DNA of 37,467 nucleotides, taken from positions 1-37,467 of IMG/VR virus record IMGVR_UViG_3300023116_000121; one strand, 5' to 3'. A program made the position numbers and the translations under genes. The stretch is from a virus. This document shows, piece after piece, positions 14,611 through 26,100 of this stretch. A model generated the notes under the pieces. It was not told where the DNA came from. It saw nothing but the letters and a program-made list of their open reading frames with translations, and did not search any database. Each line of letters starts with the position of its first letter. Within the stretch, counting starts at the first letter, position 1.

Positions 14611-14866
14611 GAACAGAGATGCTTATATTCTTAGACGTATGAAAGAATCTGCATTAGAAGAACAGATAGGTGGCAGCCACTATAAAGATTGTCAGATACA
14701 ACCAGTAGAGTATATAGTTAGAAATGGTTTAGACTTTCTTGAAGGTAACATTATTAAATACACAACAAGGCACAGAACAAAAGGACAAGGTAAAGAGGAC
14801 ATACAAAAGGTAATACATTATGCGGAAATGATTCTGCATTTTTACTACGAGGGGCAAGATGATTAA
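14576..14866 (+). CDS. DUF3310 protein
   Basis: 96 residues. GGSHYKDCQIQPVEYI, then GLDFLEGNIIKYTTRH, and EDIQKVIHYAEMIL match DUF3310 (PF11753), small phage proteins often labelled nucleotide kinase-like and found beside nucleotide metabolism genes. AGGGGA lies seven bases before ATG 14576. It precedes nrdA directly, with 8 bases overlap, in keeping with a dNTP supply role. Confidence 0.8.
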   Translation: MKLEEDSTHSYENRDAYILRRMKESALEEQIGGSHYKDCQIQPVEYIVRNGLDFLEGNIIKYTTRHRTKGQGKEDIQKVIHYAEMILHFYYEGQDD

Positions 14867-16649
14867 CGACATTATTAAAGTTTCTCCAGAGAGAGATGAC
14901 TTATTCGATGAACTTGGGATAGCTCGACTTAAAGAATCTTACATGATGGACCATGAGCTATCTCCACAAGAGAGGTTTGCATATGTTTCCAGATGTTTTG
15001 GCACTAATGAAGAACATGCTCAAAGGCTTTATGAATATTCTTCAAAGCATTGGTTATCCTATTCAACTCCTATACTATCATATGGGCGTTCCCGGCGTGG
15101 CCTTCCTATTAGCTGTTATCTTAATTATATACACGATAGTGCAGAGGGTTTAGTTGATAACTTATCAGAAACGAATTGGCTTAGTATGCTTGGCGGTGGT
15201 GTTGGTATTGGCTTTGGTATTCGCTCTAGCGATGATAAGAGTACTGGAGTCATGCCACATCTCAAGATGTACGACTCCTCTAGTCTTGCTTATAGACAAG
15301 GACGCACAAGACGAGGATCATATGCGGCATACTTAGACATCTCACACCCAGATGTATTAATGTTTCTTGAGATGCGAAAGCCTACTGGCGATCAGAACTT
15401 TCGTTGTCTTAACATGCATCATGGTATTAATATATCAGATGAGTTTATGAATGTGCTTGAACACTGCATGGTCAATCCATATGCTGATGATACTTGGGAC
15501 TTGGTTGATCCACACAGTAAGAAAGTATGCGATGTAGTCTCTGCTAAAGAACTGTGGCAACGTATTCTAGAGATGCGTATGCAGACAGGAGAACCTTACT
15601 TACACTTTATAGATAAGTCTAATGCTGAGATGCCATCATGGTTGAAGCAGAGAGACTTAAAAATAAATCAATCTAATCTTTGTTCAGAGATTATCCTACC
15701 AACATCTGTAGACAGGACGGCAGTATGCTGCTTATCTTCTGTTAATCTAGAATACTTTGATGAATGGTCTAAAGACAAATACTTTCTTATGGATACACTG
15801 GAGATGTTAGATAATGTTCTACAATCTTTTATTGAAGAAGCTCCTGATAGTATTAGTCGTGCTAAGTTTTCCGCTATGCGTGAACGCTCAGTCGGTGTTG
15901 GAGCATTGGGATTCCATGCCTACTTGCAAGCTAAGAACATTCCATTTGAATCAGCAATGGCTAAGTCAATCAACATGCGAATGTTTAAACACATACGAAC
16001 AGAACTTGATCGTGCAAACAGAGGCTTGGCAGTCCTTCGAGGAGAAGCACCTGATGCAGCAGGAACAGGGTTACGTTGTTCTCATGTCATGGCAATTGCC
16101 CCTAACGCTTCAAGTTCGATTATCATGGGAAACACATCACCCTCAATTGAACCTTGGAGAGCTAACGCCTATCGCCAAGATACTCTTAGTGGTTCCTTTC
16201 TAAATAAGAACAAGTTCTTAGATAAGATAATCAAAGAGAAGTGTGAGAAAGATAGTAAGCTAAACTATGATCGTATCTGGTCAAGTGTTATAGCTAATGA
16301 TGGATCTGTGCAGCACCTACGTTGTCTTGAACCAGAGGAGAAAGAAGTATTCAAGACTGCTATGGAGATAGATCAAAGATGGGTGATTGAACATGCAGCA
16401 GATAGACAGCAGTACATAGATCAGTCTCAGTCTCTGAATGTTTTCTTCAGACCAGATGTTGACATAAAGTATCTACATGCTGTACACTTCATGGCATGGA
16501 AGAAAGGTCTGAAGACTATGTACTATTGTAGATCAGAGAAGATTGGTAAGGCTGATAAGGTCAGTCGTAAGATAGAACGTCAGATCATTGACGAGTTAAG
16601 TATGGAAGCACTTGCTTCTGGTGAAGAATGTCTAGCATGTGAGGGGTGA
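14859..16649 (+). CDS. nrdA: class I ribonucleotide reductase, large subunit
   Basis: 596 residues. Active-site residues are visible: C86 (GLPISCYLNY), N273/C275/E277 (SNLCSEI), C290 (AVCCLSS), the YY dyad in KTMYYCRS, and the C-terminal pair C591/C594 (CLAC). It makes deoxyribonucleotides with NrdB at 17204. It lacks the roughly 90-residue N-terminal ATP-cone of E. coli NrdA (761 residues), so dATP feedback inhibition is probably absent. An HNH nuclease gene separates it from nrdB. Confidence 0.93.
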   Translation: MINDIIKVSPERDDLFDELGIARLKESYMMDHELSPQERFAYVSRCFGTNEEHAQRLYEYSSKHWLSYSTPILSYGRSRRGLPISCYLNYIHDSAEGLVDNLSETNWLSMLGGGVGIGFGIRSSDDKSTGVMPHLKMYDSSSLAYRQGRTRRGSYAAYLDISHPDVLMFLEMRKPTGDQNFRCLNMHHGINISDEFMNVLEHCMVNPYADDTWDLVDPHSKKVCDVVSAKELWQRILEMRMQTGEPYLHFIDKSNAEMPSWLKQRDLKINQSNLCSEIILPTSVDRTAVCCLSSVNLEYFDEWSKDKYFLMDTLEMLDNVLQSFIEEAPDSISRAKFSAMRERSVGVGALGFHAYLQAKNIPFESAMAKSINMRMFKHIRTELDRANRGLAVLRGEAPDAAGTGLRCSHVMAIAPNASSSIIMGNTSPSIEPWRANAYRQDTLSGSFLNKNKFLDKIIKEKCEKDSKLNYDRIWSSVIANDGSVQHLRCLEPEEKEVFKTAMEIDQRWVIEHAADRQQYIDQSQSLNVFFRPDVDIKYLHAVHFMAWKKGLKTMYYCRSEKIGKADKVSRKIERQIIDELSMEALASGEECLACEG

Positions 16650-16650
16650 C

Positions 16651-17211
16651 ATGGAATTAACTGCTGAAATAGTTAGAGAGTTATTAGATTATAATCCTAA
16701 TACTGGAGAGCTTTTTTGGAAGAAAAGACCTCTAAAGTATTTTAAAAATAAACATGATAGAGATAAATGGAACGGTAAATTTTCTGGTAAGGAAGCATTC
16801 ACTACTATCTATCGTCAAAAAACTGGAAGAATTTCAAGAAAAGAAGGTAGAATTTTTGGAAAAAAATATTTAGCACATCGTATAATATGGCTACATTATT
16901 ATGGTTGTTTACCTAAAAATCAAATAGATCATATTAATCATGATCCAACTGATAATAGAATAATTAACCTTAGAGAAGTTACTCCTTCTGAAAATAATAG
17001 AAATAGAACACTACAATCTAATAATAAAGTAGGACATAATGGTGTTTACTATGATAAAGATAATAATAAATATAGAGCACACATAGCAATTAATAATGTT
17101 AGTAAATGTTTAGGACGTTATACTACTCTTGAAGAAGCAGTAGAAGCTAGAAGAATAGCTAATATAAATTATAATTTTCACGCTAATCATGGGGCAGAGA
17201 AAAATGACTGA
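16651..17211 (+). CDS. HNH homing-type endonuclease with AP2-like domain
   Basis: 186 residues from ATG 16651 (MELTAEIVRE...); GAGGGG lies just upstream. It starts with a YNPNTGELFWKKRP module common to phage HNH proteins, then QIDHINHDPTDNRIINL and NNRNR, the HNH core. The C-terminal GVYYDKDNNKYRAHI to LGRYTTLEEAVEARRIA is an AP2-like DNA-binding domain. Codon use is more AT-rich than in the nrd genes on either side, consistent with later arrival. It overlaps the start of nrdB by 8 bases. Confidence 0.88.
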   Translation: MELTAEIVRELLDYNPNTGELFWKKRPLKYFKNKHDRDKWNGKFSGKEAFTTIYRQKTGRISRKEGRIFGKKYLAHRIIWLHYYGCLPKNQIDHINHDPTDNRIINLREVTPSENNRNRTLQSNNKVGHNGVYYDKDNNKYRAHIAINNVSKCLGRYTTLEEAVEARRIANINYNFHANHGAEKND

Positions 17212-18175
17212 GTTAAAACTACAAGATGAACGAGATTACTTTAAACCATTTCATTATCCTTGGGCTTATGATGCATGGCTAAAGCATGAGCAATCACACT
17301 GGCTGCATACTGAAGTGCCAATGATTGAAGATGTCAAGGACTGGAAAGATAAACTATCTACAGAAGAGAAGTACTTTCTCACAAATATTTTTCGTTTCTT
17401 TACACAGTCAGACATAGATGTATCTGGTGGGTACGTAAATAATTATCTGCCTAACTTTCCACAACCAGAGATACGTATGATGTTGTCGGGCTTTGCTGCT
17501 CGTGAGGCTTTACATGTAGCTGCATACTCACATCTCATTGAGTCTCTTGGTATGCCAGAGACAACATATAATGAGTTCAATGAGTATGAAGCTATGCGAG
17601 ACAAGCATGAGTTCTTCAAGGCAAACGTGTCCTCTGGTAAGCTGCCTATACCTCTACAGATTGCAGCTATCTCTGCTTTCACTGAGGGCTTGGCATTGTT
17701 CAGTAGCTTTATTATGCTGCTTAACTTTCCTCGACATGGCAAGATGAAGGGCATGGGACAGATAGTTACATGGTCTATTGTAGATGAAACACAACATGCA
17801 GAAGGTATGATCAAGTTATTTAGAACTTATGTAGAAGAGAATAGGAATGTTTGGAATGACAAAACCAAATCAGAAATCTATAAGACGGCAACTAAGATGG
17901 TTGAACTGGAAGATAAATTTGTCGATCTTGCGTTTAAGATGGGTGCGATTGATGGCCTCACTCCGACAGAAGTTAAGGAATACATTCGGTATATAGCAGA
18001 TCGTAGACTAATATCTATGGGCATGAAAGGCATATTCAAAGTCAAGACTAACCCATTGCCGTGGGTAGAGACTATGATTAATGCTCCTACTCATACAAAC
18101 TTCTTTGAGAACAGAGCTACAGACTACGCTAAAGGTGCATTACAAGGAGACTGGTCAGATGTTTGGGCAAACTAA
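17204..18175 (+). CDS. nrdB: class I ribonucleotide reductase, small subunit
   Basis: 323 residues from ATG 17204 (MTELKLQDER...); the earlier ATG 17189 lies in the HNH gene. Metal ligands are visible: D70 (FTQSD, tentative), E101 and H104 (REALH), E161 (TEGLALF), E195 and H198 (DETQH). Y108 matches the radical tyrosine of E. coli (Y122). It therefore looks like a functional tyrosyl-radical subunit that pairs with NrdA. The next gene overlaps its end by 17 bases. Confidence 0.93.
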   Translation: MTELKLQDERDYFKPFHYPWAYDAWLKHEQSHWLHTEVPMIEDVKDWKDKLSTEEKYFLTNIFRFFTQSDIDVSGGYVNNYLPNFPQPEIRMMLSGFAAREALHVAAYSHLIESLGMPETTYNEFNEYEAMRDKHEFFKANVSSGKLPIPLQIAAISAFTEGLALFSSFIMLLNFPRHGKMKGMGQIVTWSIVDETQHAEGMIKLFRTYVEENRNVWNDKTKSEIYKTATKMVELEDKFVDLAFKMGAIDGLTPTEVKEYIRYIADRRLISMGMKGIFKVKTNPLPWVETMINAPTHTNFFENRATDYAKGALQGDWSDVWAN

Positions 18176-18405: not shown

Positions 18406-18434
18406 TTGACAAATGGTATATCTTGTATTATAAT
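18406..18434 (+). promoter_or_regulatory. perfect consensus sigma70 promoter for the hsp20 gene
   Basis: TTGACA (18406-18411), 17 bases, TATAAT (18429-18434): both hexamers and the spacing match the consensus exactly. Transcription would start near 18441. It is the strongest host-type promoter in the window. Confidence 0.85.
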
Positions 18435-18489: not shown

Positions 18490-18912
18490 ATGTTTCCATA
18501 CACAGAATCTATGGTAAAAAACTTTTTAGAAAATTCAATAGGCTTTGACAGCTTACTGTATAGTATAAAAGAACAGACCAATCAATATCCACCTTACGAT
18601 ATTATCAAGCTGGATGATCTGTCCTATGAAATTAAACTAGCACTGGCTGGATTTTCTAAAGAAGATATCAGTGTAATACAAGAAAAGAATATTGTTACAA
18701 TTAGTAACACTAAGAAAGTTGATGATGTTGGTAGCACTGTAGATAGAAAGTACATACATAATGGTATTGCTAAAAGACCTTTCACTAAGAAGTTTAATCT
18801 ACTCAATAATACACGAGTAAGTGATGTGTCTTTTGAAGATGGTCTACTAACATTGAAGATTGTTGTAGAGATACCTGAAGAAGAAAAGCCTAGACAAATA
18901 GAAATACAATAA
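18490..18912 (+). CDS. small heat shock protein (Hsp20/alpha-crystallin)
   Basis: 140 residues from ATG 18490 (MFPYTESMVK...), preceded by a perfect AGGAGG (18479-18484). Alpha-crystallin features: YDIIKLDDLSYEIKLALAGF, KEDISVIQEKNIVTIS, a GIAKRPFTKKFNL strand and the terminal DGLLTLKIVVEIPEE. Hsp20 proteins hold unfolding proteins; phage versions are common in marine phages and may aid virion assembly or protect host proteins during infection. It is a monocistronic unit with its own promoter and terminator. Confidence 0.9.
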   Translation: MFPYTESMVKNFLENSIGFDSLLYSIKEQTNQYPPYDIIKLDDLSYEIKLALAGFSKEDISVIQEKNIVTISNTKKVDDVGSTVDRKYIHNGIAKRPFTKKFNLLNNTRVSDVSFEDGLLTLKIVVEIPEEEKPRQIEIQ

Positions 18913-18918
18913 CAAACT

Positions 18919-18953
18919 ATGGGGAGTAATTAATTTTGCTCCCCATTATTTTT
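18919..18953 (+). terminator. terminator of the hsp20 gene
   Basis: ATGGGGAG (18919-18926) pairs with CTCCCCAT (18939-18946), followed by a T-rich tail (TATTTTT). It begins six bases after the stop. The GGAGA of the next gene follows at once. Confidence 0.8.
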
Positions 18954-18962
18954 GGAGATACA

Positions 18963-19733
18963 ATGAGAAAAGCACCCAACACTATTTACATAGGCTACGA
19001 TCCTAAAGAACAGGTAGCTTATGACGTATTAAGATTTACAATAGAACGTATATCTGTAGAGAATGTACGTATTGTTCCTATAAGAAAAGATATTCTAGAA
19101 CTAACTGGTATGTATACTAGGAAACATGAAGTTGTAGATGGTCAGAACATTGATATCATAGATGGTAGACCTTTCTCAACTGAGTTTAGTTTTACTAGGT
19201 TTCTAGTGCCAGCTATGAATATGTATGAGGGTTGGGCTTTGTACATGGACTGTGATATGTATCCACGTACAGATATCAATAGTTTATTTGATGAATATAA
19301 TTTAGAATACTATCCATTATATTGTGTTAAACATAAATATGAACCCGGCGATGGTGTTAAGATGGATGGTATGAAACAAGAAAACTATCGTAGAAAGAAC
19401 TGGTCTAGTTTTGTTTTATGGAACTGTTCACATCCATTAAATAGAACGCTTACTCCAGAGGTTGTAAACACACAAACAGGACAGTGGCTTCATGCATTTG
19501 GTTGGTTGCCAGATAAAGAAGCTGATATTGGTGCTATAGATGAAGAATGGAACTGGTTAGACAATCACTCTCCTGAAGATGTTGAAGCTAAGAATGTACA
19601 CTTTACTACAGGTGGTCCTTGGTTTAAACAGTGGAAGTGTGGTAGACATATAGATGGTAAGTATGCAGCAGAATGGAATGCTGACTACACATACCTAGCA
19701 GGTACAAGAAAGATAAGTAGCCATGAAATATAA
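18963..19733 (+). CDS. glycosyltransferase (GT-A fold, family 8-like)
   Basis: 256 residues from ATG 18963 (MRKAPNTIYI...), with GGAGA five bases upstream; a TTG at 18936 inside the terminator is rejected. It has an N-terminal IYIGYDPKEQVAYDVL strand-helix, the FTRFLVPAMN helix, and ALYMDCDMYP with a D96-x-D98 metal and nucleotide-sugar motif. A basic and aromatic C terminus (HFTTGGPWFKQW) follows. It transfers a sugar, perhaps onto a phage or host glycan. It overlaps the start of the next gene by 11 bases. Confidence 0.8.
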   Translation: MRKAPNTIYIGYDPKEQVAYDVLRFTIERISVENVRIVPIRKDILELTGMYTRKHEVVDGQNIDIIDGRPFSTEFSFTRFLVPAMNMYEGWALYMDCDMYPRTDINSLFDEYNLEYYPLYCVKHKYEPGDGVKMDGMKQENYRRKNWSSFVLWNCSHPLNRTLTPEVVNTQTGQWLHAFGWLPDKEADIGAIDEEWNWLDNHSPEDVEAKNVHFTTGGPWFKQWKCGRHIDGKYAAEWNADYTYLAGTRKISSHEI

Positions 19734-22110
19734 AATAGTAACTTGTTTTAATGAAACAATTCTAAACAAGAATGCTGCTAAACTTATTCAACAGTTCGTA
19801 GATAAGTGGCAACCTGTAAAGAGTATAGAGTTTCACTGCTATTATTATGATGTAGATCTGAGTAACTACTCTTTACCTGAGAGTAATAATATATTCTATC
19901 ACAATCTTGAAGAGCTTGATGACTTCAATGCTTTCATGGAACGTAACAAAACACATGACGGTACTGAAGCAGGAGCTATTGAATACAATGTTATGCTTGA
20001 TGCTACAGGTCAAGCTCCAAAGATATTTGCACTAAGTGAGTGTGCTTTTAATAATAAAGATTCATGGATGGTGTGGCTTGATCCTTACTGCTACACAATG
20101 AAAGACATTCGATTGTCTTCTATTAAAAATATTCTACCACCTAAAGAGAAAACATTTTCTTTTCTCAAGCTGCAAGACTTTGATCATTTCATGGCATTTG
20201 ATATTACAAATCAATCTGCCGTGGAGTTACTTGCTGATGTACGTGGTGCTTTTATAACAGACGAGTTTATGAATTACAGAGAGTGGAATGCTGCTCTTAT
20301 TCTAAACACTCTCCTGTCTTTATACAATGCACATGGTTTTTCTTACAAGATAATAACAGAAGAAACTATTAATTATATTAATGAACTATTTGTAGATACA
20401 AACAATCCTACAACTAAGAACCTTAGAGACTCTGATGGTAACAGAGTTGTAGCTCTAAGAGAAGATGCTACAACACCTGACATTCTCCCTCAAAGATACA
20501 AACAACTAGCTGATTTAATCAGGCACTATGAACCTGAGACAATCCTTGAGACAGGTACATGGAATGCAGGTCGAGCTATTGAGATGTCTCTTGCTGCTTT
20601 TGACAGAAAAGATAAAATACACTACATTGGTTTTGATTTATTTGAAGATGCTACGGCAGAGACTGATAGCATAGAGTTTAATTCTAAAGCACATAACACA
20701 ATGGCGGCTGTACAGAAACGACTGACGGAGTTTGCTGACTATGTTAAAAAAGAACAGAACAAAGAGTTTACCTTTGAGCTTTACAAGGGCGATGTCAAAG
20801 ATACCCTCACTTCTTCTCACGCTTCTAAAGTTGATTTTGGTGTCATTGGTAGTGGTAATAGCATCAATACTGTAGCTCATGAATATGAGATACTAAAAAA
20901 TGTTCCTGTTGTTATAGCTGATCATTACTTTACGAAAGATGAAGCAGATGAAATACCACCAGAGAAGTATCAAGGTGTAAACGAAGTATTTAAATCTGTT
21001 GCAACTAAGAAAGTAGAAGCAGAGAATGCCCCAGACGAAGACGGCTGGACTACGTTTGATGAAGAAGCAACAACACGTAAGCATGTACTACCATCAAATG
21101 ATAGAGTTGTAGGTGGTGGTTGTACACATTTAATTATATTTATACATGATGTAAATGCAGCAGACATACCTGAAGATATCAAACGTGTACCTATTGTTGT
21201 GCATCCTCGTGACTGTGTTCCTAAAGAATACATTCAGACAAACATACAAACAAATGTAAAGATGATTGACGAAAAGAAGTGGGTTGTAAAACATCCTGCT
21301 CATAGAGAGCTAGGAATTATAGTATCTGCTGGTCCTTATCTTGATTATGATAAACTAAAAAGTTTTATTAGAATAGAGAAAGAACGTGGTAGAGATCCAA
21401 AAGTTTTAGCTGTTAAACATGCATACCCACATCTATTAAAACATGGTATAAAACCTTGGGGATGTATTGTTTTAGATCCTCGTTCTATTGAAGGTAAAAG
21501 CACACATAACATTGTAAGAAAAGACTTGTTTAAAGACATAGACCCTGATACAATATTCTTTGTTGCCTCTATGACTGATCCTTCTGTAACAAAACATTTA
21601 AAAGATCGTGATGTTAATATATGGGGCTGGCATGCTTTTACTGAGTCACTACGTAGAGAAGATGAAAGACAACAAGCAATTCAAAATCAAACAGTTAAGT
21701 TAAATGAAGATCTTGGAATACCACAAGGTGCGACACTTATTACAGGTGGTACATGTGCAGCCATGCGTGGTATAGGTATGATGCATACAATGGGCTTTCG
21801 TGAGCTACATCTATTTGGTTTTGATTGTTGTAGAGATGAGCCAACAGATGAAGAGAAAACAGAAACAACTGGAGATATTGAAGGTGGTGAAACTCCTAAA
21901 CCTAAATACATACAGGTAACTGTAGGAGATAAAACATACTGGACTACAGGAGAGCTTCTTGCTATGGCACAAGATTGTGAGAAAATATTTGCAGACACAT
22001 CACTAGATGGTGTATTACAGTTTCATGGAGAAGGAACAATGGTTGCTGATCTTTGGGACATAAAACTACAGAAAGAGAAAAGACCACAGTTTAGGAACTA
22101 TTATGCTTAA
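19723..22110 (+). CDS. three-domain protein: GT-like, methyltransferase, DUF115
   Basis: 795 residues. Residues 1-225 resemble the glycosyltransferase next door, but at its DxD position this one has WLDPYCYT, so the second Asp is missing. Residues 255-470 form a class I methyltransferase-like region (ILETGTWNAGRAIEMS, then YIGFDLFED). Residues 525-785 match DUF115/MptE-like (GIIVSAGPYLD, LKHGIKPWGCIVLD, LITGGTCAAMRGIG, LHLFGFDCC), the domain of Maf flagellin glycosylation factors. It probably acts with its neighbours on a glycan. Substrate unknown. Confidence 0.7.
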   Translation: MKYKIVTCFNETILNKNAAKLIQQFVDKWQPVKSIEFHCYYYDVDLSNYSLPESNNIFYHNLEELDDFNAFMERNKTHDGTEAGAIEYNVMLDATGQAPKIFALSECAFNNKDSWMVWLDPYCYTMKDIRLSSIKNILPPKEKTFSFLKLQDFDHFMAFDITNQSAVELLADVRGAFITDEFMNYREWNAALILNTLLSLYNAHGFSYKIITEETINYINELFVDTNNPTTKNLRDSDGNRVVALREDATTPDILPQRYKQLADLIRHYEPETILETGTWNAGRAIEMSLAAFDRKDKIHYIGFDLFEDATAETDSIEFNSKAHNTMAAVQKRLTEFADYVKKEQNKEFTFELYKGDVKDTLTSSHASKVDFGVIGSGNSINTVAHEYEILKNVPVVIADHYFTKDEADEIPPEKYQGVNEVFKSVATKKVEAENAPDEDGWTTFDEEATTRKHVLPSNDRVVGGGCTHLIIFIHDVNAADIPEDIKRVPIVVHPRDCVPKEYIQTNIQTNVKMIDEKKWVVKHPAHRELGIIVSAGPYLDYDKLKSFIRIEKERGRDPKVLAVKHAYPHLLKHGIKPWGCIVLDPRSIEGKSTHNIVRKDLFKDIDPDTIFFVASMTDPSVTKHLKDRDVNIWGWHAFTESLRREDERQQAIQNQTVKLNEDLGIPQGATLITGGTCAAMRGIGMMHTMGFRELHLFGFDCCRDEPTDEEKTETTGDIEGGETPKPKYIQVTVGDKTYWTTGELLAMAQDCEKIFADTSLDGVLQFHGEGTMVADLWDIKLQKEKRPQFRNYYA

Positions 22111-22789
22111 TGATACAGAAATAAAATATGGTGAAGAGTATTCTGCTAAGTCACCATCAGAAAGATATACAAAATTACTAAGTCAATACGTTGATATGCA
22201 TGACTCGTCTGATGAAATGTTCAACGGTAAGAGTCTATATAAGTTTGTATACTATATAAAAAATCTTATTAAAAGACATGATGTTAAATCCATATTAGAT
22301 TATGGTTGTGGTAAGGGCCAACTATATACAGAAGACTACAAGAAGATTGCATCTGGATTGTCCGCACCTCTTCCTAAACTATGGAATCTAGATAGCTATC
22401 ATCTCTATGATCCGGGCTATAAAGAACATGATAAACTTCCTAAGAACAAACAAGATGCAGTTATATGTACAGATGTTCTTGAACATGTACCTTCCTCAGA
22501 TATGAAATGGGTAGTAGAAAACATTCTATCTTATGCAAGAAAGATTGCTTTCTTTAATATCTCTTGTATGCCAGCAGTTAAGAAGTTTCCTGATGGTGAG
22601 AATGTACATGTATCTATTTATAATCCAGAGGTATGGGCTAGATTCTTTTGTAAATTATTAAAGGATGAAAGTTATAAAGATCTTACAGTATATGTTCATG
22701 CAGACTATAGATTAGATGATCATGGTATAGCAAGTAGATTGTTTCAAATTAAATATCATCCAACAATCTTTGAGATAAAGGAGATCTAA
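22103..22789 (+). CDS. class I SAM-dependent methyltransferase
   Basis: 228 residues. Motif I SILDYGCGKGQ is the SAM-binding glycine loop; later AVICTDVLEHVP is the motif IV region. A C-terminal FARDLRL-type extension is not recognised. The glycosyltransferase genes immediately upstream (8-base overlap) suggest methylation of a sugar or of a cell-surface precursor. Other small-molecule substrates cannot be excluded. Confidence 0.8.
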   Translation: MLNDTEIKYGEEYSAKSPSERYTKLLSQYVDMHDSSDEMFNGKSLYKFVYYIKNLIKRHDVKSILDYGCGKGQLYTEDYKKIASGLSAPLPKLWNLDSYHLYDPGYKEHDKLPKNKQDAVICTDVLEHVPSSDMKWVVENILSYARKIAFFNISCMPAVKKFPDGENVHVSIYNPEVWARFFCKLLKDESYKDLTVYVHADYRLDDHGIASRLFQIKYHPTIFEIKEI

Positions 22790-23194
22790 ATGTTAGGACT
22801 TGCAGAAAGTGTGGTAGGTGTAGCTGGTAAAGTTCTTGATAAGTTTGTAGAAGACAAAGATCTGAAGACTAAACTAGAGGCAGAACTAAAACAGCAAATG
22901 ATTAGCCTTGATCTTGCTCAAGCACAGACAAACTTAGAGCAAGCTAAACATCCTTCTATCTTTGTAGCCGGAGCTAGGCCAGCCATCATGTGGATATGTG
23001 CCATAGCTCTTGGATGGCAGTTTATTCTTGCACCTATATCTTCATGGATTATTATAACTTGGTATCCTATGGTAACACTACCTGTGTTAGAAACAGGAGA
23101 ACTAACAAGTCTTATTCTAGCTCTTCTTGGTCTTGGTGGTATGCGTACAGCAGAGAAGTGGAAGGGTGTTGCTAGAAATAATATGAAGCAGTGA
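22790..23194 (+). CDS. holin, 3-TM family
   Basis: 134 residues (MLGLAESVVG...). It begins with an amphipathic helix and a KLEAELKQQ coiled segment, then GARPAIMWICAIALGWQFIL, SWIIITWYPMV, and LTSLILALLGLGGMR, ending in a charged WKGVARN tail. This matches the Holin_3TMs family (PF11351) of GTAs and phages. It would permeabilise the inner membrane to time lysis. It directly follows the methyltransferase gene. Confidence 0.85.
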   Translation: MLGLAESVVGVAGKVLDKFVEDKDLKTKLEAELKQQMISLDLAQAQTNLEQAKHPSIFVAGARPAIMWICAIALGWQFILAPISSWIIITWYPMVTLPVLETGELTSLILALLGLGGMRTAEKWKGVARNNMKQ

Positions 23195-23286
23195 TAGTAA
23201 AACTATTAGCTGCTTTTATATTTCTATGGATAGTGTATATAATTAGTGTTGGTATTATTCAAACATTTTGTAGGTGTCTAGTTTAA
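23191..23286 (+). CDS. 31-residue membrane peptide after the holin
   Basis: GTG 23191 overlaps the holin stop (GTGA) and opens 31 residues (MIVKLLAAFIFLWIVYI...), one membrane helix followed by FCRCLV. Its stop TAA shares a base with the next ATG (TAATG). It is coupled at both ends. It could be a small lysis helper or regulator; the Cys near the end is suggestive but not a lipobox. Confidence 0.5.
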   Translation: MIVKLLAAFIFLWIVYIISVGIIQTFCRCLV

Positions 23287-23639
23287 TGAAAGCAGGAAAA
23301 GTCTGGGGTCAAACCTCTACCATATTTCAGAATGGTGTATTTGAATTTCATCACATTTTATTTAAAGAAGGAAGTAAGTGTAGCAAACACAAACATAAAT
23401 ACAAGTGGAATGGTTTCTATGTAACAAAAGGTGTTTTAATTATTCGAGTGTGGAAGAATGACTATGATCTTGTAGATGAAACTTTTCTTAGACAAGGTGA
23501 GTGGACTACAGTAAAGCCCGGAGAGTATCATCAGTTTGAAGCAGCGACAGATGGTGAAGCATTAGAATTATACTGGGCAGAGTTTGACCACAATGATATA
23601 GAACGTGAGACAGTAGGAGAAGCTCATGGCTCTGAATGA
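23286..23639 (+). CDS. cupin-fold protein
   Basis: 117 residues from ATG 23286 (MKAGKVWGQT...), translationally coupled to the tiny ORF upstream (TAATG). Double-stranded beta pattern: FEFHHILFKEGSKCSKHKHK with a histidine cluster, YVTKGVLIIRVW, a basic turn, and VKPGEYHQFEA, the cupin motif 2. It may bind metal and a small ligand. The substrate is unknown. It overlaps the small terminase gene by 14 bases. Confidence 0.75.
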   Translation: MKAGKVWGQTSTIFQNGVFEFHHILFKEGSKCSKHKHKYKWNGFYVTKGVLIIRVWKNDYDLVDETFLRQGEWTTVKPGEYHQFEAATDGEALELYWAEFDHNDIERETVGEAHGSE

Positions 23640-24093
23640 AAAGCAAGAGAAGTTTGCACAAGCATATGTACTACACCGTAATGCTACAGAGGCTGCAAAG
23701 AATGCTGGATATGCCGCTGACTCTGCATATAACCAAGGCTATCGTCTTATGCAGAACCAAGAAGTAGTTGATAGAGTACATGAATTAGAACAGCAACTAG
23801 AAACAGATGTAGATGTTATAGGTGAGTTAGAAAAACAATATGAGTATGCTAAAAACAATGGTCATTCTAACAGTGCATTAAAAGCATTAGAGTTATTATC
23901 TAGAATACGTGGAGCAAGTGGAGATGTTAACACTGGACTAGATAAAGATACATTAGAGACTGCTATTGTTGGTTGCCTCAATACATTAGGAGAAGAGAAA
24001 GTACTAAAACTTCTAGAGAAGTGTGACTTTGCAAGTAACATATTTGAAGACGGGGATGTAGAAGAAGATGTCAAGGAAATGGAAGGTGTATGA
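23626..24093 (+). CDS. terminase small subunit
   Basis: 155 residues (MALNEKQEKF...). LNEKQEKFAQAYVLHRNATE and AAKNAGYAADSAYNQGYRLM are the terminase_2 helix-turn-helix that binds the packaging site. A central coiled helix (RVHELEQQLETDVD) and an acidic C terminus follow. It recognises phage DNA for packaging. The large subunit is not in the window. It lies in the rightward operon, opposite in strand to the virion genes. Confidence 0.85.
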   Translation: MALNEKQEKFAQAYVLHRNATEAAKNAGYAADSAYNQGYRLMQNQEVVDRVHELEQQLETDVDVIGELEKQYEYAKNNGHSNSALKALELLSRIRGASGDVNTGLDKDTLETAIVGCLNTLGEEKVLKLLEKCDFASNIFEDGDVEEDVKEMEGV

Positions 24094-25311: not shown

Positions 25312-26100
25312 TTAACATGGTACTGGATCATTTAAAATATAAACTACAGAAAAATCTGCTGATACTAAATTGTTTGATCCTGAACTAGACGCTCTAATTT
25401 CTATATCAGTTTTTTCTTCTACTCTTATTGGATAACGAATTACAAAATCTGCTACACCTCCAGAACCTATTGACTGTTTTAACATTACTCTAAAGACACC
25501 TCCAAAATTTCTTTGTAAAGCTCTAACAGTTATGTACTGATTAGCATTTGTTGTACCAGTTGCTACATTGAAATGATCTATAAAAGCTGTATATCCAGCA
25601 GGTACAGTCCAAATTCCCATTAAAGTTTGGTTCTCACCTAAAGTTATTTGAGCATAGATATTAGCAGGTACACCTAAAGTTAAAGTTCCAGTACCTACAT
25701 AAATATTACCAGCAGCAGTTCCTCCACTTCCAGCCGTTACAACATATGCTCTATAAATTCTTAAATAAGACTTAGAAGTGCTAACACCTGTCTGACCATT
25801 TAAAGAAACAGTTTCTTCAATCTCATTGTAGTCAGCGTCTAATCCTTGAACAAAGACAGTTCTTGCCCCTGTGCCAGCAGAAGTATCATTAGTACTTCCA
25901 CTTGATACAGTCATAACTGTAGCTGATGGAGGATAAGAATATATACCACCAGCATCCCAAACAGTTTCTTCAGTACCATTTATATCTGGATTAAATCCAA
26001 ACTTAAATATATGTTTATGATAACTAATTTGATCACGAGCTATCTGTAAATCAAATGGTTCATTACGACCTATTCTTGTTATAGAAGATGCTATTGCCAT
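25312..26100 (-). CDS. beta-rich virion structural protein
   Basis: 262 residues (MAIASSITRI...). Long Gly-, Thr- and Ser-rich beta strands: DAGGIYSYPPSATVM, GTGARTVFVQGLDADYNE and SVVYILNDPV. This pattern occurs in structural proteins of marine phages. A minor capsid or tail role is likely. AAGGAT lies upstream on the minus strand. It is in the distal half of the virion operon. Confidence 0.55.
   Translation of the reverse strand: MAIASSITRIGRNEPFDLQIARDQISYHKHIFKFGFNPDINGTEETVWDAGGIYSYPPSATVMTVSSGSTNDTSAGTGARTVFVQGLDADYNEIEETVSLNGQTGVSTSKSYLRIYRAYVVTAGSGGTAAGNIYVGTGTLTLGVPANIYAQITLGENQTLMGIWTVPAGYTAFIDHFNVATGTTNANQYITVRALQRNFGGVFRVMLKQSIGSGGVADFVIRYPIRVEEKTDIEIRASSSGSNNLVSADFSVVYILNDPVPC

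Follow-up and report, generated by a model that had tools for sequence, protein, structure and literature searches.

We describe a block of three overlapping genes in the viral DNA IMGVR_UViG_3300023116_000121, which was analysed over its whole length of 37,467 nucleotides (hereafter the window). The genes encode a stand-alone glycosyltransferase (GT), a protein of 795 residues and a separate methyltransferase (MT). The 795-residue protein is a true three-domain fusion of a GT-A domain, a COMT-type methyltransferase and a DUF115/MptE-like domain, and the three-gene block belongs to the core genes of a large uncultivated clade. Together the three genes very probably form a glycan-building block, with a set of five activities: three domains of sugar-transferase type and two methyltransferases.

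The domain assignment of the fusion relies on family profiles and on an AlphaFold2 model. The model was built from 56 homologues and replaced a poor one from 12 sequences (predicted local distance difference test, pLDDT, 65). The whole-protein mean pLDDT is now 83, and the placement of the domains is uncertain because the predicted template modelling score is 0.56. PDB sequences yielded chance hits only, whether searched with the whole fusion or with the profiles of its domains.

The third domain matches the MptE-like family PF01973 at residues 507-704 (E 8e-14; 52.2 bits against a cut-off of 34.6), and this family is found in the fusion proteins of all 56 relatives. When the complete model is compared with solved structures, the Maf glycosyltransferase 5mu5 ranks first (Z 18.6; model residues 239-780). 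The root-mean-square deviation (rmsd) is 14.6, which suggests that the alignment spans a hinge between two bodies. PF01973 proteins collected from 372 alphaproteobacterial genomes served for profile-profile comparison (hhalign). The phage DUF115 domain matched 19 alphaproteobacterial Maf-like proteins (probability 97, E 8e-11), and the methyltransferase and GT-A domains had no match in the same 19 proteins. As only the DUF115 part matches, we consider this domain a member of the Maf family and the whole protein not a Maf. The nearest cellular DUF115 protein that was found is alphaproteobacterial, stands alone (268 residues; L134, 1381-2187; E 2.6e-10) and adjoins sulfotransferase-like genes.

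The same domain (residues 494-769) superposes on the MptE-type HPPK of M. jannaschii (8sd5; Z 14.8, rmsd 3.3, 200 residues aligned), and PF01973 is named for archaeal MptE, a 6-hydroxymethylpterin diphosphokinase. This kinship could mean pyrophosphokinase-like chemistry: the methyltransferases would act on a protein or a small molecule, and the glycosyltransferases would make a glycosylated small product such as a modified nucleotide or a pterin-like compound. COMT-type and TrmR folds indeed act on diverse small molecules and on tRNA. However, domain 3 clearly matches Maf-type proteins by profile, and the presence of two glycosyltransferases in the operon speaks for glycan chemistry. A non-exhaustive search beside the block recognised no genes for pterins or for nucleotide modification. 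MptE itself is a small stand-alone enzyme of cofactor synthesis, whereas the phage domain is fused to a glycosyltransferase and a methyltransferase within a glycan operon. A small product is thus improbable.

Domain 2 (residues 246-478) resembles structures of the COMT family at Z of about 15. The window protein matches Methyltransf_24 (PF13578) below threshold (E 0.016), relatives reach E 2e-5, and 42 of the 56 members match at E up to 1. Motif I (ETGTWNxG), D305 and D400-H401 are invariant or nearly so among the 56 relatives. A Methyltransf_24-like gene also lies directly after nrdB in two small alphaproteobacterial genomes of 1.2-1.3 Mb (L136, L137).

For domain 1, the closest solved structure among the matches listed is the glycosyltransferase domain of A064R from the chlorovirus PBCV-1 (2p6w; Z 14.8, rmsd 2.9, 177 of 206 residues aligned), and 4ayl gives Z 14.5. 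The Pfam scan returned no hit for this domain; its profile matches the GT-A half of the cellular MT-GT proteins described below (E 2e-24 for one of them). At the position of the DxD motif the window reads D-P-Y, most relatives D-P-x, some D-A-D and the contig L127 (5203-7548) N-T-N.

The two flanking genes also belong to recognisable families. Glyco_transf_8 (PF01501) is matched by 14 of 25 relatives of the stand-alone glycosyltransferase (best E 1e-4) and not by the window protein itself in the Pfam scan. The motif D96-x-D98 is invariant. In addition, the enzyme is 37% identical to a Verrucomicrobial protein which exceeds the Pfam cut-off for this family. The motifs DYGCGKG and CTDVLEH of the stand-alone methyltransferase are conserved. 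Profile comparison showed no similarity between the fused GT-A domain and the stand-alone glycosyltransferase, nor between the two methyltransferases, and paralogy of either pair was rejected on this basis.

The original prediction had named a glycan-modification block of three overlapping genes: a GT-8-like enzyme, a fusion of glycosyltransferase-like, methyltransferase-like and DUF115 domains, and a separate methyltransferase. The open reading frames (ORFs), the homologues and the ratios of nonsynonymous to synonymous substitution rates (dN/dS) bear out the gene arrangement. The first gene was aptly called GT-8-like, given the family matches of its relatives and the invariant DxD. Hidden Markov models (HMMs), profile-profile comparison and the structure model agree on the three domains, the model containing both a DUF115-type and a methyltransferase fold. 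The separate methyltransferase is confirmed by Methyltransf_23 (E 3.5e-6) and its conserved motifs, and the description of the block as a whole stands up to HMM, profile-profile and structure tests.

Full-length homologues are present in well over 100 viral contigs. Relatives among uncultivated viruses comprise 18 loci from a close search and, from a profile search, the 80 relatives listed of 262 confirmed. In 95 loci, the glycosyltransferase is present in 94, the sole exception (L087) starting within the fusion, and the methyltransferase in 82; most of the loci without it end inside the fusion or shortly after it. Since these loci were selected for carrying the fusion, occupancy was re-tested from unrelated anchor genes. 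From the putative terminase small subunit, 65 contigs reach 6.5 kb or more upstream, and all 65 have the glycosyltransferase, an unbroken fusion and the methyltransferase. From the DNA polymerase, 8 contigs extend 9.5 kb or more downstream; the block is found in all 8, in one of them cut by the contig end. Both scans cover the best 80 relatives, and some contigs are shared between the searches; the occupancy therefore applies to the clade and should not be extended to every virus with genes of this kind. A second branch shares 45% identity with the window protein and contains 57 full fusions, with the glycosyltransferase in 54 of 54 and the methyltransferase in 50 of 50 cases. In one contig (L318, 4165-6507), one in-frame stop codon separates the methyltransferase part of the fusion from the DUF115 part, due to mutation or assembly error.

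The fusion and its DUF115 part had no tblastn match among the annotated phages of INPHARED, and megablast with the window gave no match. HMM searches found PF01973 absent from Mosig EXVC030M and S-SCSM2R; it is likewise absent from HTVC027P, HTVC103P and HTVC115P. No description of DUF115 or MptE-like proteins in phages was found in the literature, as judged from titles and counts. However, MptE-like multi-domain proteins are already recorded, uncharacterised, in uncultured Caudovirales phages. The best BFVD match, A0A6J7X5Q0 (714 residues, 'Methyltransferase domain containing protein'), comes from such a phage and matches nearly the whole fusion model (24% identity over 825 columns, E 4e-53). 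Judged by this alignment, it probably represents the same architecture in another phage. The original prediction did not know the fusion from described phages, and among annotated phages it is indeed absent; it is no rarity of the window, being universal in a large uncultivated clade.

All three genes are under strong purifying selection: against a close relative, dN/dS is 0.012 for the glycosyltransferase, 0.055 for the fusion and 0.10 for the methyltransferase. Mean pairwise identities are 67%, 63% and 50%, respectively, compared with 67% for the DNA polymerase. The fusion co-evolves with the polymerase (r 0.76) and, by these sequence comparisons, evolves nearly as slowly. Inside the fusion, mean column identity decreases from DUF115 (76%) to the methyltransferase (62%) and GT-A (57%) domains. 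The stand-alone methyltransferase is the most variable part of the block, with 44-45% identity in some pairs whose fusions are 80% identical; such a pattern would fit a glycan whose core is constant and whose cap varies. Many phages carry glycosyltransferases, but usually as patchy accessory genes. Here, the viruses apparently cannot do without the block, because it is present in every relative tested and conserved nearly at polymerase level.

Cellular kin of the block were sought in genome contigs. Nothing was found with an alignment of the whole fusion, and the methyltransferase domain led to six loci. One of them, L127 (PAKP01000072.1), is a contig of the same phage clade which was binned in a Sneathiella metagenome-assembled genome; this contig of 33,035 bases is also present in IMG/VR (L316). 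Two marine alphaproteobacterial loci (L128, L129) encode proteins of about 498 residues with the module order reversed, a methyltransferase followed by a GT-A domain with the motif IDADT. No viral relative of the L129 protein was found. A fusion of a GT2-like domain and a methyltransferase occurs in ANME-1 (L130). Finally, a Verrucomicrobial locus (L132) holds, within 6 kb, homologues of the stand-alone glycosyltransferase (the protein mentioned above), the separate methyltransferase (38%) and the fused methyltransferase (31%), surrounded by GT4 genes and a KdsD-like SIS-CBS gene. These fusions and this cluster indicate that cells pair such modules in glycan contexts.

In phages, homologues of the stand-alone glycosyltransferase (38-40% identical) are found in Mosig EXVC030M, S-SCSM2R, CcrSC and the Manatee Spring podovirus, which had no tblastn match to the DUF115 fusion. 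Their neighbours are FkbM methyltransferases, a sulfotransferase or, in S-SCSM2R, KdsA and KdsB.

Of the known viral systems, PBCV-1 offers the nearest likeness. Its protein A064R combines two glycosyltransferases and one methyltransferase in one chain and works with a separate methyltransferase, A061L (PMC9614988). Stepwise building and O-methyl capping of the major capsid glycan by this pair were demonstrated experimentally (PMC9614988). The phage fusion likewise unites an N-terminal GT-A domain, a second transferase and an O-methyltransferase in one viral protein, beside a separate viral methyltransferase. However, the order is GT-MT-DUF115 in the phage and GT-GT-MT in A064R, the second domain of A064R is described as a new GT family and not as DUF115, and the GT-A domains share only 11% identity in the aligned part. 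Moreover, PBCV-1 is a eukaryotic giant virus with a proven glycan target, whereas that of the phage block is putative.

The second likeness concerns Maf, which O-glycosylates serine and threonine of flagellin through a Maf_flag10 domain resembling the sialyltransferase Cst-II (PMC11339370). One Maf accepts both Kdo (3-deoxy-D-manno-octulosonic acid) and Neu5Ac (N-acetylneuraminic acid) donors, and the N-terminal Rossmann domain is degenerate in Maf (PMC11339370). In 5mu5 as in the phage protein, a Rossmann-type domain precedes a homologous DUF115 domain. In contrast to Maf, the phage protein has a COMT-type methyltransferase as its Rossmann domain, in which the S-adenosylmethionine motifs are conserved, and an extra GT-A domain in front. 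The 5mu5 alignment covers the Rossmann domain before DUF115, yet there is no profile match to the Maf N-domain. It extends only up to residue 503 of 632, and within this alignment the helical C-terminal domain of Maf has no counterpart. Neither flagellar nor nonulosonate genes were recognised around the block, and the CMP (cytidine monophosphate)-sugar synthetase family PF02348 is absent from seven long relatives. The block extends DUF115/Maf chemistry beyond flagella.

How might these activities be combined? Two glycosyltransferase modules, a DUF115 transferase and two methyltransferases fit a pathway in which a short glycan is assembled step by step and capped with O-methyl groups. In the scheme which we tentatively favour, at somewhat less than even confidence, the block is a phage counterpart of A064R and A061L, a soluble cytoplasmic assembly line that would draw on nucleotide sugars of the host and make an O-methylated glycan. 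Hexose-type sugars would be added by the GT8-like enzyme and by the GT-A domain. The DUF115 domain, with its GT42-like fold, would transfer one more sugar, possibly an acidic one in CMP-activated form, and both methyltransferases, fused and stand-alone, would cap the product by O-methylation. The acceptor would most likely be a phage-made virion protein, glycosylated before assembly. The domain content, the conservation, the overlap of the genes and the lack of the tested precursor and GtrA families in relatives are established; we infer which types of donor are used, in which order the steps follow, that a sugar and not a protein is methylated, and that the virion is the target.

In the seven long relatives (56-62 kb), none of the CMP-sugar synthetase, epimerase and NTP (nucleoside triphosphate)-transferase families tested was found, nor was the GtrA flippase family. 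Hydropathy indicated no transmembrane segment in the block proteins. The donors are therefore probably host-derived and the reactions cytoplasmic, and the suggestion of the original prediction that the block builds a modified sugar, if taken to mean one from phage-encoded precursors, is disfavoured, as no sugar nucleotidyltransferase or epimerase family tested was found in those relatives. We favour a virion protein because the block is constant clade-wide and because the protein that Maf-type DUF115 enzymes modify is likewise assembled only later. The block is always present, unbroken and conserved like a polymerase, so that a constant target such as a virion part suits it better than variable host surfaces. 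Confidence in the virion as target is nonetheless somewhat less than even.

Several points weigh against this scheme. In most members the fused GT-A domain has a degenerate DxD position; D stands in third place in 14 of 56 relatives. As the canonical motif is missing in three quarters of the members, the domain may, from its sequence, be metal-independent or non-catalytic. The loss of DxD alone does not exclude activity, because GT-A enzymes without it exist; 4ayl is described as metal-independent. The KdsA/KdsB, FkbM and sulfotransferase neighbours of the phage homologues also fit host-surface glycans. Furthermore, assembly of the lipopolysaccharide (LPS) core likewise takes place on the cytoplasmic face, and the lack of a flippase thus leaves room for a host target.

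Such a target is the core of another explanation, in which the block alters a glycan on the surface of the host, either LPS inner core or an O-chain-like structure, late in infection, for superinfection exclusion or particle release. The added, methylated sugars could then stop sibling phages or phage debris from binding. Host glycans are the substrates of most surface modifiers known to be encoded by phages, and the holin-adjacent position of the block suits late expression. The Verrucomicrobial cluster, with three homologues beside GT4 and KdsD-like SIS-CBS genes, and the KdsA and KdsB neighbours in S-SCSM2R point the same way and make an LPS-type target nearly as credible as the virion. On the other side, the block is uniform across a clade which varies in G+C content (31.6-41%) and in ribonucleotide reductase type, the GtrA-type flippase was not found in the seven long relatives, and bacterial DUF115 is best known from protein glycosylation (PMC11339370). 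Overall, we consider a host-surface role doubtful, yet a serious competitor.

A fourth explanation starts from the gene order. Genes for replication and for ribonucleotide reductase precede the block, and phages such as T4 glycosylate DNA; the enzymes might thus glycosylate and methylate phage DNA or nucleotides against restriction. However, no domain matches a known DNA glucosyltransferase or base-modification family, the structural matches are glycan and small-molecule enzymes, and the homologues cluster with glycan genes. This makes DNA modification highly improbable.

If virion glycosylation is true, the block would be a clade-wide phage counterpart of chlorovirus capsid glycosylation, with a flagellin-type transferase domain used on a virus particle. 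The stronger proposition, that a clade of apparently marine podophages depends on self-encoded protein glycosylation and bears a methylated, possibly ulosonic-acid glycan on the virion, is rather unlikely. In any case the block is a defined three-gene unit which is open to expression and testing.

Some genes of the clade resemble those of pelagiphages. The DNA polymerase is 45-47% identical to those of HTVC103P, HTVC104P and HTVC115P, and the replication module (PolA and primase-helicase) is HTVC103P-like. In a relative (G001), the portal protein is 41-43% identical to those of HTVC023P and HTVC027P, whereas neither the capsid nor the terminase of HTVC103P was matched there. The clade thus looks like a mosaic of HTVC103P-like replication and HTVC023P/027P-like structure with its own glycan block, for which the block may serve as a marker. 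It is apparently marine, judging from these relatives. An equation with the HTVC103P 'group IV' (PMC8528129) was considered and not shown, capsid and terminase being unmatched in G001. CRP-810-type phages carry Prim-Pol and cobS/cobT (PMC11288001); identity with them was rejected in view of the PolA and primase-helicase found here. No isolate of the clade was found, and no anti-phage defence model matched.

The ORF analysis places all three genes on the plus strand (Table 1), with reading-frame overlaps of 11 bp between the glycosyltransferase and the fusion and 8 bp between the fusion and the methyltransferase. The holin gene starts 1 bp past the stop of the latter. The start codon of the glycosyltransferase is the ATG at 18963, which is preceded by GGAG; the TTG at 18936 in the ORF list lies inside a hairpin.

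Table 1. Features of the glycan block and its surroundings in the window
Feature	Position	Strand	Evidence and remarks
Sigma-70-type promoter	18406..18434	+	12/12 match, TTGACA-17-TATAAT; upstream of HSP20 and glycan block
HSP20 gene	18490..18912	+	Pfam HSP20 E 2e-14; outside core block
Hairpin followed by T-run, terminator or attenuator	18919..18946	+	between HSP20 and glycosyltransferase
GT8-like glycosyltransferase, 256 residues	18963..19733	+	phrog_28018; invariant DxD (D96, D98)
GT-A : methyltransferase : DUF115 fusion gene, 795 residues	19723..22110	+	
Fusion domain 1, residues 1-245, GT-A fold glycosyltransferase-like	19723..20457	+	model fold, profile match
Fusion domain 2, residues 246-478, COMT/Methyltransf_24-type class I methyltransferase	20458..21156	+	structure matches, motifs
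Fusion domain 3, residues 490-795, DUF115/MptE-like (Maf_flag10) transferase domain	21190..22107	+	PF01973, profile-profile, fold
Stand-alone class I methyltransferase, 228 residues	22103..22789	+	phrog_24759; Methyltransf_23 E 3.5e-6
Holin	22790..23194	+	phrog_3427 E 1.5e-27; directly downstream of block
Putative terminase small subunit	23626..24093	+	named by position and sequence character; independent anchor for occupancy test

An HSP20 gene transcribed in the same direction as the block is a neighbour in 63 of 95 relative loci, and hairpins resembling that of the window occur in about one tenth of the relatives. A near-consensus promoter lies at most 900 bp upstream of the glycosyltransferase in 51 of 95 relatives, against a background expectation of about 0.024 per relative (about 2 among 95). 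In several relatives it stands 46-64 bp before the glycosyltransferase ORF with no HSP20 gene detected in between. These promoters are consensus matches, by which use in vivo is not proven.

Further differences were seen around the block. At one locus (window 14859-18175; relatives L002-L011, L025-L083) the kind of ribonucleotide reductase differs while the adjoining glycan block is constant. The window and some relatives have NrdA and NrdB, with an extra HNH-like gene in between in the window (16639-17211); most relatives have a single reductase protein of 558-578 residues, 21-25% similar to NrdA, and no NrdB. Between the holin and the putative terminase small subunit lies a cupin/cysteine-dioxygenase-like gene (23274-23639), which is present in 12 of 95 loci. 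Lastly, a gene for 262 residues (25312-26100; phrog_8198) is without counterpart in L001 (13197-13448), where most other proteins are 95-100% identical.

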